Positions 2,845 through 11,180 of a stretch of 54,402 nt of DNA are shown here, piece after piece. A model generated the notes under the pieces. The model was not told where the DNA came from, did no database searches, and was given only the letters and a program-made list of their open reading frames with translations. The translations under genes were made by a program, and so were the position numbers. Origin of the DNA: Pelotomaculum isophthalicicum JI (lineage in GTDB: Bacteria > Bacillota > Desulfotomaculia > Desulfotomaculales > Pelotomaculaceae). The DNA lies in the NCBI RefSeq assembly GCF_029478095.1, contig NZ_JAKOAV010000025.1, forward strand, positions 1-54,402, in the 5' to 3' direction. Position 1 is the first letter of the stretch, and each line of letters begins with the position of its first letter.

Positions 2845-2896
2845 ACAGGCGATATGCGAAACACACAAACCTAGGCAACGACGCTAATAATGAAGC

Positions 2897-2931
2897 AAAA
2901 TACACTACCACGCAAAGTGTAGTGTATTTTT
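2897..2931 (+). terminator. Rho-independent terminator of the FAD oxidase gene
   Basis: AAAATACACTAC (2897-2908) pairs perfectly with GTAGTGTATTTT (2919-2930) and ends in a T-run. The A-run on the other side lets it work on both strands. Confidence 0.75.
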
Positions 2932-3274
2932 ACGCCTGGAATAATGAACCCAGCACTTTGCCATGTTGAGCGTGGAATACTGGTTGTTAGACGTTGGCGT
3001 TAGTGATGCCTCCTGCTATTGTTTCAACTCTTTGGACATTGCTACAATTAAAAAATTTAACATATATGTCATATATAAAAATATATTATAAAATATCAGC
3101 TTTCCACAAGCTTCTAGCCTGTGAGATCACTCTTCTTAGAGAATGCAGAAATTTGTATTTTGGCAATGATTCCACTAGCTCAGATGGAAATTAATTTTGG
3201 ATTATCTCGGGGATATAACGATAGAACCAGCTATAGAAAAACAATAATAATCAAAAAAAGGAGGCATAAAAAAT
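2932..3274 (+). other. AT-rich gap upstream of the RiPP precursor
   Basis: I see no convincing gene here. The 66-codon open frame at 2994-3194 lacks a ribosome binding site and recognisable domains. The stretch presumably holds the promoter of the precursor gene, but no clear -35/-10 pair stands out. A strong AAGGAGG (3258-3264) serves the TTG start at 3275. Confidence 0.5.
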
Positions 3275-3586
3275 TTGAGTAAAAACAAGCAAACTATGAC
3301 TCTAGGGGAGGAGGTAAAGGAAAAAATCAAAGCGGTCGTACAAGACACAGACTTTAGGAAAGCACTAGTGAACAATCCAAAAGAAGCTCTTGCCCAAATA
3401 GGTATTCAATTCCCTGAGGAAGTCGACATTAAAGTCGTTGAATCGGCAAAATCAGAAAGTAAAGTAACATACCTGGTATTGCCAGTTAATCCTGACGAGT
3501 TAACCAATGAACCCAGGATTTCAAAGCACGATTGCCGTGGCCCCTCCCTTCCGCTCGTTGTTTGTCTTTATTGTCCCTTTCATTAA
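3275..3586 (+). CDS. RiPP precursor peptide with NHLP (nitrile-hydratase-like) leader
   Basis: This is a 103-aa protein starting at TTG with AAGGAGG 10 nt upstream. Residues 1-75 follow the nitrile hydratase alpha-subunit-like leader (NHLP) pattern: a charged helix, DTDFRKALVNNPKEAL (25-39), then GIQFPEEVDIKVVE and a strand ending in TYLVLPVNPDE. Such leaders direct modifying enzymes and are cleaved off later. The remaining tail of about 28 residues is unlike the leader, rich in Pro and hydrophobic residues, and has three cysteines (C87, C97, C100) near the end; it is the probable core. No Gly-Gly or Gly-Ala cleavage site is seen. A radical SAM/SPASM gene follows on the same strand. The leader call is firm; the modification is unknown. 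Confidence 0.8.
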   Translation: MSKNKQTMTLGEEVKEKIKAVVQDTDFRKALVNNPKEALAQIGIQFPEEVDIKVVESAKSESKVTYLVLPVNPDELTNEPRISKHDCRGPSLPLVVCLYCPFH

Positions 3587-3741
3587 GAACCATACATACT
3601 AGTCTGGTCGAATTATTGCCTTAGTTTCGCTATCATGTTAGCTAGAATGAAAATACGGGCAATCTCGGTAACTTTGGGCTCATCCATTACCTGACACACT
3701 GTTCTGGCCACTCCGGTGAGTAATTACTCCATAGAGACATG

Positions 3742-3768
3742 CCCGGAGGGGAGGCTTTCTTCTCCGGG
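3742..3768 (+). terminator. Stem-loop between precursor and maturase, possible attenuator
   Basis: CCCGGAG (3742-3748) pairs with CTCCGGG (3762-3768) around a 13-nt loop, followed by TCTCCTTTTG. It lies in the 228-bp gap between the RiPP precursor and its maturase. A leaky terminator here would make more precursor mRNA than enzyme mRNA, a common arrangement in RiPP loci. The T-run is short, so efficiency is uncertain. Confidence 0.45.
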
Positions 3769-3814
3769 TCTCCTTTTGTCCATAGTTGACGAGCAGTTTA
3801 AGGAGTTGAAATAA

Positions 3815-5125
3815 ATGATACCGTCCAGGTACAACTTTATCTGGCCCACTGATGACTCTGAGAAGGTAATGATCTTTAATAGTCTTACAACTTCTTTGGC
3901 CGAGGTAGAGAAGACCTATATAGACTTACTGAACGTTCAGCAATTTGATTATGATGCCCTGCCTAAAGATAAAAAGCAGTTTATCGACGAGTTAATGCTG
4001 GGAGGATTCGTCTTAGAACACGCAGCCGATGAACTAAAAATACTAAAGTTTGCATATAACAGCAATAAATACGACAGGATTGGGCTGGGATTTACCATCG
4101 CTCCCACCCTAAGGTGCAACTTTGATTGCACCTATTGCTATGAACAGTCTGGAATAAGCCAGGACAAGCGAAACGGGCAAAATGCTTTCATGCCTGAAAA
4201 TGTACAGCAAAAGTTGCTGAAGCTTATTGAAAAGGCTGCTAAGACAGTAAGGTTCGTATCCGTCACCTGGTACGGTGGAGAGCCGCTTTTGGGCAAAGAT
4301 ATTATCTTCGATTTATCTCAAAAAATACTCGCTATTACTAAGGAGAACAAGATAGGCTATTTTGCCGATATGGTTACCAACGGTTACCTGCTGACCGGCG
4401 ATCAGGATATAGTGCAAAAGCTGAAAGGCAGTCGAATTGGGACTTTTCAAATTACTCTTGACGGGCCGCCTGATGTACATAACAACCGCAGGATGCTTAA
4501 AGGCAATAGCGGCCCAACATTCGACCGAATCCTGGAAGGCATCCATCTCTTGACTGCCAATGATTTAAAAGTTAACCTTCGCATCAATGTAGACCGTTAC
4601 AACTCGGACGAGGCGTTAAAACTTTTAGATATACTGGAGGACAACAATCTTAAAGACATCTCCATCAACTTAGGCCATGTTAGCGCAATCACAGCAGGAT
4701 GCAAGTCTATTTACGAAATCTTAAGGCAAAGAGGCTTCAAAACAGGCCAGACGCCCTATTACCCCCGTATTGCCCTTGCCTGTGGCGCTGTACGGATGAA
4801 CACCTTTGTGCTCGATCCGGACGGCGACATGTACAAGTGCTGGTCAGAAATCGGCGATAAGCCCGCCCGCATCGGTAATATTGTAGACTTCCAGCAACTA
4901 GCCAAAGATGAACGCATGCACGAAATACGCTGGTTGACCTGGGAGTCTTTCGAGTATGCCGACTGCGTGAAATGCAAGATGCTGCCCATTTGCATGGGAG
5001 GCTGTGGCTATCGGGCCATGTTCGTCAACAAAGACAGGCCCGATTGTGTGGAATGGAAATACAGCCTGGAACATTACGTCAGGGCGCGCTACCGCAGAGA
5101 GATAGAAAATAATAATAAAATTTAA
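3815..5125 (+). CDS. Radical SAM/SPASM peptide maturase
   Basis: This is a 436-aa protein; its ATG is preceded by AAGGAG. Residues 1-70 (SRYNFIW, then FNSLTTSL) form the N-terminal region usual in RiPP-modifying SPASM enzymes. The radical SAM core begins at CNFDCTYC (C101, C105, C108), which binds the 4Fe-4S cluster that cleaves SAM, and has GGEP at 154-157. The C-terminal SPASM domain is complete: C323-x13-G-x4-C342, then C384-xx-C387-x5-C393-xxx-C397 and C411, enough for two auxiliary clusters. Such enzymes install thioether, C-C or C-O crosslinks or epimerise residues in a precursor peptide. The NHLP precursor upstream is the obvious substrate. No peptidase, transporter or immunity gene is visible nearby. 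Confidence 0.85.
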   Translation: MIPSRYNFIWPTDDSEKVMIFNSLTTSLAEVEKTYIDLLNVQQFDYDALPKDKKQFIDELMLGGFVLEHAADELKILKFAYNSNKYDRIGLGFTIAPTLRCNFDCTYCYEQSGISQDKRNGQNAFMPENVQQKLLKLIEKAAKTVRFVSVTWYGGEPLLGKDIIFDLSQKILAITKENKIGYFADMVTNGYLLTGDQDIVQKLKGSRIGTFQITLDGPPDVHNNRRMLKGNSGPTFDRILEGIHLLTANDLKVNLRINVDRYNSDEALKLLDILEDNNLKDISINLGHVSAITAGCKSIYEILRQRGFKTGQTPYYPRIALACGAVRMNTFVLDPDGDMYKCWSEIGDKPARIGNIVDFQQLAKDERMHEIRWLTWESFEYADCVKCKMLPICMGGCGYRAMFVNKDRPDCVEWKYSLEHYVRARYRREIENNNKI

Positions 5126-5258
5126 AAAAATGAAAGGTAGGTGAACAGCCCTTAGCTGTTTAAAAATAATATCCTCATGGAAAAGAGCAGGGCAAAGAAA
5201 GTCCCATTAAACGCATAGGGCGCAATAAAGACCCATTAAAGCTTGAAAAAGTGAGGGA

Positions 5259-6034
5259 ATGGATAACTTATTCATTCGTTTTTGTCAAGCAGTGTATGGG
5301 TTTTTTATTATGTCCTTTTCTAATGCCCGTATATATGATTTGGATGGGGACTTTGAAGCAAAGTTTTTTGATGCAGGTTGGTCAACCAGCGAGCTAAAAG
5401 AAAAAACTAAGATTACGGAAAGAAGAAGAAAATTATCAGCAAAAGGTGAATCACCTGATTATGAAAAGAACAGTCAAAAAAATGTTACTAAAGCAAGGGG
5501 AAATGTCAGGCGCAGAATAAAGAAATATAAGCTGATTCGCAAGTGGGAATTAACTTTTGCTGATAATATCCAGGAAGTCAAAGAAGCCGATTATTACTTT
5601 CGTAACTTTATGAAACGAATAAACAGGAGATTTCCGGGGTTCAAATATGTTGCCACCAGAGAATTCCAAGATAAAAACGGTAGGGGAGCCGTTCATTATC
5701 ATATTGCCGTAAATATGTTCATCCCTAAAAAAGAACTGGACGAAATATGGGGGCAGGGTTTTACCTGGGTGAGAGCCTATATAAAAGACGAAAAAGCAGG
5801 CCGGAAAAACATTTATAACTATCTTACCAAGTACCTTACAAAATACAGCAACGACGAAAGATTAAAAGGGTATCACCTGTATCTGTGTTCCCAAGGATTG
5901 AATGTCCTTTTTACCGATATGCACAATTTGAAAGCGCGGAAGCCTTTTTACAATACCTTTTTCAGAATTACAAAAACGCAGGGGAAAAATTCATTAAATA
6001 TTATGAGGATACTGGCTTAACCATTGTAATCTGA
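5259..6034 (+). pseudogene. HUH replication-associated protein (ORF2/G2P-like), frameshifted near the C-terminus
   Basis: The frame from 5259 gives a basic helix (TKARGNVRRRIKKYK), the WELTF strand, REFQDKNGRGAVHYHIAV with the metal-binding HUH-type HYH (H146, H148), and the tyrosine motif YNYLTKYLTKY (186-196). This order is typical of rolling-circle replication proteins of the ORF2/G2P type. At the T-run around 5908-5912 the sensible protein leaves this frame. The frame two bases on continues as YRYAQFESAEAFLQYLF and then KNAGEKFIKYYEDTG, stopping at 6032-6034, whereas the original frame ends in unlikely sequence at 6020. I infer a one-base indel or sequencing error. The start is uncertain: GAGGGA almost touches the 5259 ATG, and 5310 is an alternative. 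Confidence 0.6.
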
Positions 6035-6884: not shown

Positions 6885-8237
6885 CTATGATAACCCAATC
6901 CTACTATTAACTCGCTTTGTGGCAATATTTGCTTGTTTAATTGTGTCATCCTCATCAATAGTAGTTAGGTTACCTTTTTCATAAACCACCCGCCCATTCA
7001 CCATGGTAAGGGTTACATCACTACTTCTTGCCTGGTAAACTAACTGAGAATAAATATCAACATTATCACTAGGACTGCAATGAATCTTGTTAAGATCAAT
7101 CATAGTTAAATCAGCTTTTTTGCCTACTTCCAATGAACCTATTTCCTTTTCCAGTCCCATGGTTTTGGCTCCTCCCAAAGTTGCTAGTTCAAATGTTTGC
7201 TTTGCGGACATGGCTGTAGGTCCATATAATGGCTTCTGTATCAATGCGGCAATACGCATTTCAGTGAACATGTCAAGATTATTGTTACAAGGGGCACCGT
7301 CAGAGCCCAAAGAAACATGAATATTTTTAGATAACATTTCCGGAATTCTGGCAATGCCAGAGCCAAGCTTTAGGTTGCTGACAGGACAATGAACTACCCT
7401 CACTCCACGTTGGCGCAATATCTCCATTTCTTTATCGTCCAACCAGATACAGTGAGCCATAATTAAATTTTTACCGGTTATTCCCAGATGATCGTAGTAA
7501 ACAATATTTCGCATCTTTCTTTCCTGCTGTATAAGAGTTATTTCTGTTGTATTCTCTGAAGCATGAGTATGGATTTTGACATTATATTTTTGAGCCAAAT
7601 CCCTTACTTGTATTAATAATTCTTCGCTACATGAAATAGCGAAGCGGGGCGCAAACGCATAATGCAAGCGGCCATTATCACTACCATGCCATTTTTCTAA
7701 CAGATCCACACTTTTCTGAAGAGACTCCCCTGTACTTTCAATTAAACTATCCGGTACTATATCGCTACTATCCATCATACATTTGCCGCTTATTGCCCTG
7801 ATTCCAGACGTAATAATTGCTTGAAAATTTGATTCAGTGTAATTCACCGTTCCCATGTCAATAATTGCAGTGGTTCCATTTCGGAACAATTCCCCAATTC
7901 CTAATAATGCTGAATAATATAAAGAATCATGGTCGTGGGCTCCTTCCAAAGGCCATATACGTTTTTTTAACCAGTCTAATAACTCAAGGTCATCAGCCTG
8001 GCCCCTGAATAGAGTTTGACATAGATGAACATGCGATTGTATGAATCCTGGGATTACTATCTGTCCCCTTGATTCAATAACTTTTGATGTATTTAGATCA
8101 AATATTTGCACAATACGCTGGATATCTTTTTCAATGGCTTTAATTGTATCATCTTCAACTAATATATTACCTCGAAAAATATCCCTGTTTGGGTTCATTG
8201 TTACTATCAAAGCATCCTTTATTAGGATAGATGACAT
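6885..8237 (-). CDS. Amidohydrolase, 5'-deoxyadenosine / S-adenosylhomocysteine deaminase type
   Basis: This is a 450-aa cytosolic zinc amidohydrolase of the TrzN/MtaD/DadD group. Metal and catalytic residues are present: HVH (H69, H71), HTHASE (H225, E228), AHC (H262) and GSDGAP (D313). HLCQTLFRGQADDLELLDWL is the substrate-loop sequence usual in adenosine-type deaminases, which convert 5'-deoxyadenosine, SAH or methylthioadenosine to inosine forms. Removal of 5'-deoxyadenosine would suit a genome rich in radical SAM enzymes, several of which are in this window. The exact substrate cannot be fixed from sequence. It lies 27 bp downstream of the alkyltransferase gene and is probably co-transcribed with it. 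Confidence 0.8.
   Translation of the reverse strand: MSSILIKDALIVTMNPNRDIFRGNILVEDDTIKAIEKDIQRIVQIFDLNTSKVIESRGQIVIPGFIQSHVHLCQTLFRGQADDLELLDWLKKRIWPLEGAHDHDSLYYSALLGIGELFRNGTTAIIDMGTVNYTESNFQAIITSGIRAISGKCMMDSSDIVPDSLIESTGESLQKSVDLLEKWHGSDNGRLHYAFAPRFAISCSEELLIQVRDLAQKYNVKIHTHASENTTEITLIQQERKMRNIVYYDHLGITGKNLIMAHCIWLDDKEMEILRQRGVRVVHCPVSNLKLGSGIARIPEMLSKNIHVSLGSDGAPCNNNLDMFTEMRIAALIQKPLYGPTAMSAKQTFELATLGGAKTMGLEKEIGSLEVGKKADLTMIDLNKIHCSPSDNVDIYSQLVYQARSSDVTLTMVNGRVVYEKGNLTTIDEDDTIKQANIATKRVNSRIGLS

Positions 8238-9506: not shown

Positions 9507-11180
<1,674 letters not shown>

Follow-up and report, generated by a model that had tools for sequence, protein, structure and literature searches.

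The window analysed here, a stretch of 54,402 nucleotides from Pelotomaculum isophthalicicum JI, carries at positions 3275-5125 a gene for a precursor peptide with a cysteine tail and an adjoining gene for an iron-sulfur enzyme that probably crosslinks the peptide. The best explanation as a whole, with a rough probability of 0.58, is a RiPP pathway reduced to precursor and maturase, in which thioether formation would be guided by the leader and the window copy would be reduced and possibly inactive. The window forms contig C25 in an assembly of 3.6 Mb and 93 contigs, rated 99.95% complete. The main features of the locus are as follows:

3260-3264 (+): GGAGG, the precursor's ribosome-binding site, 10 nt upstream of its TTG start, from sequence
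3275-3586 (+): NHLP-leader RiPP precursor, 103 aa, TTG start, over the cut-offs of TIGR03793 and PF02979
3275-3508 (+): leader, about residues 1-78, no cysteine, partly homologous to nitrile hydratase alpha chain
3509-3583 (+): tail or core, about residues 79-103, with C87, C97 and C100, from sequence and comparison with the related locus L047
3741-3779 (+): terminator-like hairpin of 13 pairs with a T-rich tail; L047 and L048 have a similar hairpin in the same position
3800-3805 (+): AAGGAG ribosome-binding site of the maturase, from sequence, kept in 5 of 5 aligned spacers
3815-5125 (+): radical SAM/SPASM peptide maturase, 436 aa, Clo7bot-like, from profile matches and a CteB/TigE fold
3815-4069 (+): predicted N-terminal RRE-like domain, residues 1-85, from AlphaFold2 secondary structure (three strands, then helices)
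4115-4138 (+): radical SAM cluster motif CX3CX2C (C101-C105-C108), unchanged in all 22 rows
4711-4712 (+): junction of a 51-bp in-frame deletion of 17 residues (L047 residues 300-316), from the row alignment
4781-5047 (+): SPASM cysteines C323, C342, C384, C387, C393, C397 and C411, invariant in 22 of 22 rows

The precursor and its pairing with the maturase

The precursor belongs to the NHLP class by its leader, which matches TIGR03793 at 69.8 bits over residues 14-79 (cut-off 50.9). Residues 23-75 also match the nitrile hydratase alpha chain (PF02979, 33.1 bits against 27.2), as expected for this class of leader, and the match spans profile positions 113-162 of 184 only. TIGR03793 is over its cut-off in none of 14 control genomes; the precursor is the sole NHLP over it in the window genome, where the second match is weak (15 bits). 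A preliminary description of the locus, made from the sequence alone, had read an NHLP-type leader and a tail ending VVCLYCPFH with C87, C97 and C100, and all of these elements are present.

The tail of about 25 residues shares the form H-D-C-x-G-x-S-x-P-L-V-V-C-x-Y-C-P-F-H with that of L047. Most bacterial relatives end the leader in VAGG or VSGG, whereas the window precursor lacks this GG-type end and reads HDCRG, making the leader boundary approximate. The available text of PMC4289311 describes GG as a frequent and not a constant end of NHLP leaders, so the RG of the window precursor does not expel it from the family. The leader end of L047 is also atypical (HDCGG), and RG may therefore not represent a lost cleavage site.

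The pairing of precursor and maturase extends across the order. Among 113 genomes, the maturase is present in 17 (at E 1e-20 or lower), an NHLP in 22 (E 1e-4) and both in 15; the 17 include G080 and G028, in which only a short piece matched. NHLPs occur in 15/17 maturase genomes against 7/96 others (Fisher p 1.1e-11, uncorrected for kinship). Spacing was examined in 33 loci, 23 of them with close maturases, defined by at least 440 bits against the window enzyme and with the window's species counted once. An NHLP lies within 700 bp and on the same strand in 20 of these 23, and the remaining close maturases have one at 1175 bp (L056), at 2956 bp (L029) or none in the stretch (L057). The more divergent maturase of L040 (348 bits) has an NHLP at 2433 bp, and a 90-aa maturase fragment in G095, which we take to be P. 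thermopropionicum, has one at 3706 bp. None of eight distant homologues (at most 226 bits) has an NHLP in the stretch examined, which is short for L042 and L068. The dedicated pairing proposed in the preliminary description is real and beyond chance, and close homologues of the maturase stand mostly with NHLPs rather than with unrelated precursors.

In the spacer between the two genes (3587-3814), the hairpin is a possible attenuator that would raise the precursor over the enzyme. It is not stronger than shuffled sequence in the window (z -0.70) or in L047 (z -0.79), with z -2.83 in L048, so that its support in the window comes mainly from its repeated position. A search of 2850-5300 against Rfam returned no match up to E 1.

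Two flanking genes were considered as parts of the system and rejected: the FAD-linked oxidoreductase gene upstream (1414-2844) and the Rep-like gene downstream (5259-6020) fall in no cluster common to the 26 neighbourhoods compared. The latter (+), directly after the maturase, encodes a replication-associated ORF2/G2P-like protein (PF23343, 54.8 bits), which suggests a mobile-element remnant. At 6885-8237 (-), 1.8 kb from the maturase, lies a 5'-deoxyadenosine deaminase gene (NF005557, 689.5 bits, cut-off 522), whose substrate is a by-product of radical SAM chemistry; related amidohydrolase frames are present in three stretches of G095. Further along, a 9-bp CATGCCGCC repeat at 9513-9567 stands at the end of a chaperonin (Cpn60) gene (9507-11156, -) and encodes the usual Gly-Gly-Met tail. 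Two tandem radical SAM enzymes lie near the maturase at L029:11198-14073 (-) and at L057:13605-16480 (+). The first of the L029 pair is a nif11-peptide maturase (TIGR04064, 741.8 bits, cut-off 518.7), and the second, at 373 bits, is a more divergent relative; the L057 pair is linked to it by clustering only.

The maturase and its predicted fold

The window enzyme is a SPASM-type radical SAM protein that matches no listed family at the level of an equivalog. Its best NCBIfam match, nearly full-length, is the Clo7bot maturase TIGR04334 (414.4 bits, E 4.7e-124), short of the equivalog cut-off of 600; the same profile matches all 22 aligned maturase rows at E 1e-40 or better. TIGR04085 reaches 63.8 bits against a cut-off of 27 and PF04055 67.6 bits, while PF13186, at 19.3 bits, is slightly below its cut-off of 21.5. 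None of the NCBIfam equivalogs listed for the enzyme reaches its cut-off, PapB (NF047865, 104.1 against 340) and SCIFF (TIGR03974, 68.5 against 425) included. All ten cluster cysteines, three in CX3CX2C and seven in the SPASM region, are invariant in the 22 rows. The clade conserves two further cysteines, C296 (21/22 rows) and C303 (19/22), and nothing in the alignment with CteB corresponds to this C296-x6-C303 pair.

AlphaFold models of the window and L047 enzymes, of middling confidence (mean pLDDT 73.8 and 77.0), both predict an N-terminal region of three strands and helices, followed by a barrel and a SPASM region. With the window model, Foldseek places CteB at the top (E 2.2e-15), directly followed by TigE, and a PDB profile search likewise ranks CteB first at 95 bits, covering the core and SPASM parts. 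In VIA-align, the model aligns from residue 4 with CteB (5why_B; Z 22.6, rmsd 4.3, 374 aligned) and from residue 1 with TigE (8vpo; Z 22.1, rmsd 4.0, 383 aligned). The match to anSME is tied or slightly better (Z 23.8, rmsd 3.3, 315 aligned) and covers 90-432 only. The predicted fold thus agrees with CteB and TigE from the N-terminus into the SPASM region. Few rows reach residues 1-82, so the prediction of an RRE-like domain in residues 1-85 rests on these two matches and on strand order. A single cysteine precedes the SPASM G-x4-C in the window enzyme, as in CteB, whereas anSME has more; this suggests an open auxiliary site, as the accessible text of PMC8326336 describes for CteB.

A probably reduced copy in the window

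The preliminary description took the enzyme to be a complete radical SAM/SPASM protein. The CX3CX2C motif and the seven SPASM cysteines are present, but the protein is not complete: it lacks 17 residues, a loss that is invisible from the raw sequence alone. The missing segment is whole in 20 of the 21 other rows and present in part in the distant row L064. Its loss removes C303 and most of a helix that the L047 model predicts at 306-322 (11 residues out of 17). Near the deletion, the pLDDT of the window model falls below 50 at residues 288-298 and 311-323, and other low stretches exist in the same model. The DNA of 3275-5125 is identical in a second assembly of the species, recorded as Pelotomaculum sp. 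PtaB.Bin013, and assembly error is therefore an unlikely source of the deletion, with the caveat that the two assemblies are possibly not independent.

Despite the deletion, the maturase frame is open. Between the window and L047, omega is 0.227 for the maturase, 0.381 for the leader and 0.80 for the tail, which is short and offers few sites. Amino-acid changes that can be polarised number 22 on the window side and 15 on the L047 side, with 23 unpolarised; when only sites on which all 11 outgroup rows agree are counted, the numbers are four and two. By these comparisons, substitutions in the window copy are still under constraint. The omega values and the polarised changes do not support a long-dead pseudogene, and a recent or tolerated deletion fits better than a pseudogene of long standing.

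No NHLM exporter (TIGR03796) is over the cut-off in the 93 contigs of the 99.95% complete window genome, where the best match scores 348 bits against 853.3; its single Peptidase_C39 match falls in a 233-aa frame that hits no NCBIfam model. The absence of a visible transporter noted in the preliminary description holds for the locus and for this genome. In the L047 genome, by comparison, Peptidase_C39 is matched within a frame of 729 aa. The exporter is the usual partner of NHLP precursors, and TIGR03796 is over its cut-off in 26 of the 113 genomes of the order and in 15 of the 22 NHLP genomes. A fuller gene row occurs at L051, in the order NHLM HlyD (TIGR03794), ABC1 (TIGR03796), ABC2 (TIGR03797), GNAT-type, precursor, maturase and DUF7005-type; the three NHLM genes are all over cut-off, and the GNAT and DUF7005 types are named from scanned cluster mates. 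At L039, an ABC1 gene over the cut-off lies near the precursor-maturase pair. Protein clustering places GNAT-type proteins in 6 of the 26 neighbourhoods and DUF7005-type proteins in 4, in stretches of unequal length. Because some relatives have NHLM exporter and GNAT genes beside the pair, the two-gene state that the preliminary description took for a minimal system is a reduction or reflects a different lifestyle, rather than a rule of the family. The genome G101, of the same genus, is the mirror image of the window genome: it has an NHLM exporter over the cut-off (1161 bits) but lacks both an NHLP (threshold E 1e-4) and the maturase (threshold E 1e-20).

Taken together, the 17-residue deletion, the RG at the GG position and the lack of a detected exporter point to a window copy that is probably reduced and may have lost its activity, in a family where most of the other members examined are intact. 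A tentative alternative, unlikely but still credible, is that the window pair is fully functional, the deletion being tolerated and the modified precursor acting inside the cell with neither cleavage nor export. The open frames, purifying selection on maturase and leader, the retained tail cysteines and the lack of a clear excess of changes on the window branch are all consistent with this alternative, as are the archaeal pairs, which likewise have no exporter homologue grouped beside them in the clustering of neighbourhoods. Against it stand the loss of most of a predicted helix and of a cysteine kept in 19 of 22 rows, and the low model confidence around the deletion, which is shared by some other stretches.

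Tail cysteines and the proposed chemistry

Cysteine is nearly confined to the tails of these precursors. The fetched stretches contain 63 NHLP matches, 44 of them distinct and not all adjoining a maturase; 43 were used, and one was left out because it lacks the Y-L-V-L-P-type motif at which leader and tail were cut. In these 43 precursors, cysteine accounts for 117 of 1680 tail residues and 1 of 2953 leader residues, an enrichment of about 159-fold with a small pseudocount; the next residue, Trp, is enriched 3.8-fold. This confinement suggests that cysteine is likely the substrate of the maturase, in line with the target proposed in the preliminary description. At least one cysteine occurs in 42/43 tails and at least two in 34/43, while 8/43 have exactly one (for example, SCRVIF) and the maximum is five. 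With counts ranging from none to five, a single crosslink rule is not visible.

Several tail forms recur within the set: SCKDFCVHDIF, exact or nearly so, in L051, L053 and L063, and GYLYICD-x-VFGFLGCT in L054 and L055. The C-x9-C-x2-C spacing, whose co-occurrence with the maturase clade was the check proposed in the preliminary description, is confined to the window and L047 among the 43 distinct precursors and does not mark the clade. The window tail is also unlike the tails of most relatives, as a variable core would be and a conserved nitrile hydratase fragment would not.

Leader-guided thioether formation is the favoured chemistry. In this scheme, the nitrile-hydratase-like leader would dock on the N-terminal RRE-like domain of the enzyme, and the CX3CX2C cluster would generate a 5'-deoxyadenosyl radical that abstracts hydrogen from a core residue. 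The sulfur of a core cysteine, held at the SPASM auxiliary cluster, could then close the thioether. Many relatives would next remove the leader by cleavage after GG and secrete the product through an NHLM peptidase/ABC system.

An unlikely alternative keeps the same pair and assigns it non-thioether chemistry, such as a C-C crosslink, a cyclopropane or epimerisation, with the cysteines serving later in disulfides or metal binding. CteB is a thioether enzyme, and TigE, which makes cyclopropylglycine instead, is as near in fold to the window enzyme; similar folds here carry different chemistry. The NCBIfam matches below cut-off also include cyclophane and geopeptide maturases alongside ranthipeptide ones. 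However, cysteine is present in 42 of 43 tails and nearly absent from leaders, and no other residue is comparably restricted to the tail, which argues for thioether formation.

Archaeal relatives

The maturase is also present in archaea: in a Methanomicrobiales bin and, within the genus to which the Methanosarcina DH2 record belongs, in 7 of 30 genomes, DH2 included. Two of these seven are broken, by a TAG in G126 and by a split gene in G125. The Methanosarcina maturase of L130 has one in-frame TAG and is probably a broken copy; in Methanosarcina, TAG can also be read as pyrrolysine. The archaeal maturase rows form one group (97/100), and the root and most bacterial branches are unsupported, so the tree gives no direction of transfer.

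Conservation in the archaeal precursors is concentrated in the core, GCDGVGGCGFCEC, where 15 of 21 columns are invariant among 8 distinct sequences. Core identity is 76-100% (mean 88) against 55-89% (mean 66) for the leader over all 28 pairs. For 27 of the 28 pairs the core has the lower omega (0-0.31, against 0.10-0.47 in the leader); these pairs are not independent, and the core is short. Judged from these alignments, the archaeal precursors reverse the usual pattern of fixed leader and free core. Three of them (L131, L133 and L134) lack part of the leader and have short QIRDQVQIK-like repeats after the core; in G114, a genome with a leader-shortened precursor, TIGR03793 finds no match.

These features invite a more speculative and rather improbable reading, in which the family is mainly non-antibiotic. 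The Methanosarcina enzyme would make an intracellular, cofactor-like peptide from the near-invariant core GCDGVGGCGFCEC-x-S-x-I, leaving the leader free to erode, and gene transfer would link these methanogens with their syntrophic bacterial neighbours, in which the cores would have diversified.

Relation to known systems

It is highly improbable that the NHLP gene is a chance frame or a piece of a nitrile hydratase, with the radical SAM enzyme acting on something else: PF02979 is over its cut-off, but over a limited part of the profile, and L047 has a closely similar tail at the same place in a pairing that is repeated in relatives. Maturation as a thiazole/oxazole peptide (TOMM) is equally implausible for the window. 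G095 does have a YcaO protein within its NHLP island, at 2427872-2428888, with three long maturase matches, of which one is interrupted by a TAA, and the fragment within about 40 kb either side of it. YcaO and maturase may draw on one precursor pool in that genome. The azole route is the one published for P. thermopropionicum NHLPs, 12 of which are shown as coming from an azole cluster in the portion of Haft 2010 consulted (PMC2887384). In contrast, neither YcaO nor, above its cut-off, TIGR03882 is matched in the window genome, whose maturase adjoins the precursor. A LanC-like cyclase, the mark of an NHLP lanthipeptide pathway, has no match there either.

The main reading, a reduced RiPP pair with leader-guided thioether formation, connects the NHLP precursors of Pelotomaculum and its Bacillota relatives with a Clo7bot-like SPASM clade, and the same connection recurs in methanogenic archaea with an unusually conserved core. 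It also provides a second possible maturase for the P. thermopropionicum NHLPs that the literature places in an azole pathway. Pairs that lack the deletion (L047; L051, which is BRH_c8a; and L059, which is Methanosarcina DH2) are better bench material than the window copy. The titles, abstract openings and passages searched, a body that leaves out most subscription journals, contain neither a report of the present clade nor the word Clo7bot.

Among known families, the Clo7bot maturases (TIGR04334) are the nearest by profile, nearly full-length, but the window enzyme is below their cut-off and its partner has an NHLP leader. The nif11-peptide maturases of TIGR04064 are a different family, with the window enzyme at 67 bits against a cut-off of 518.7. 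CteB, the SCIFF ranthipeptide synthase (PDB 5wgg, 5why), is the closest solved structure by sequence and by Foldseek, at about 16% identity. TigE (PDB 8vpo) is a nearly full-length fold match at 15-16% identity. The window tail, with its three cysteines, has the cysteine donors characteristic of ranthipeptides and sactipeptides. The domain order of CteB, RRE, radical SAM and SPASM, as given in the accessible text of PMC8326336, is the order predicted for the window enzyme.

Compared with the NHLP precursors of TIGR03793, as the consulted portion of PMC2887384 presents them, the window peptide shares a leader over the cut-off and a cysteine-rich tail, with an NHLM exporter in several relatives. 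It differs in lacking a VAGG end and in having a SPASM enzyme as partner where the published pathway is an azole one. The closest precedent in logic is the set of NHLP and Nif11 peptides for which the accessible part of Haft 2011 (PMC3023750) states a radical SAM enzyme as the sole candidate maturase. Systems of NHLP and sole radical SAM maturase have thus been known since 2011, and the Clo7bot-like clade described here would be a new variant of them.
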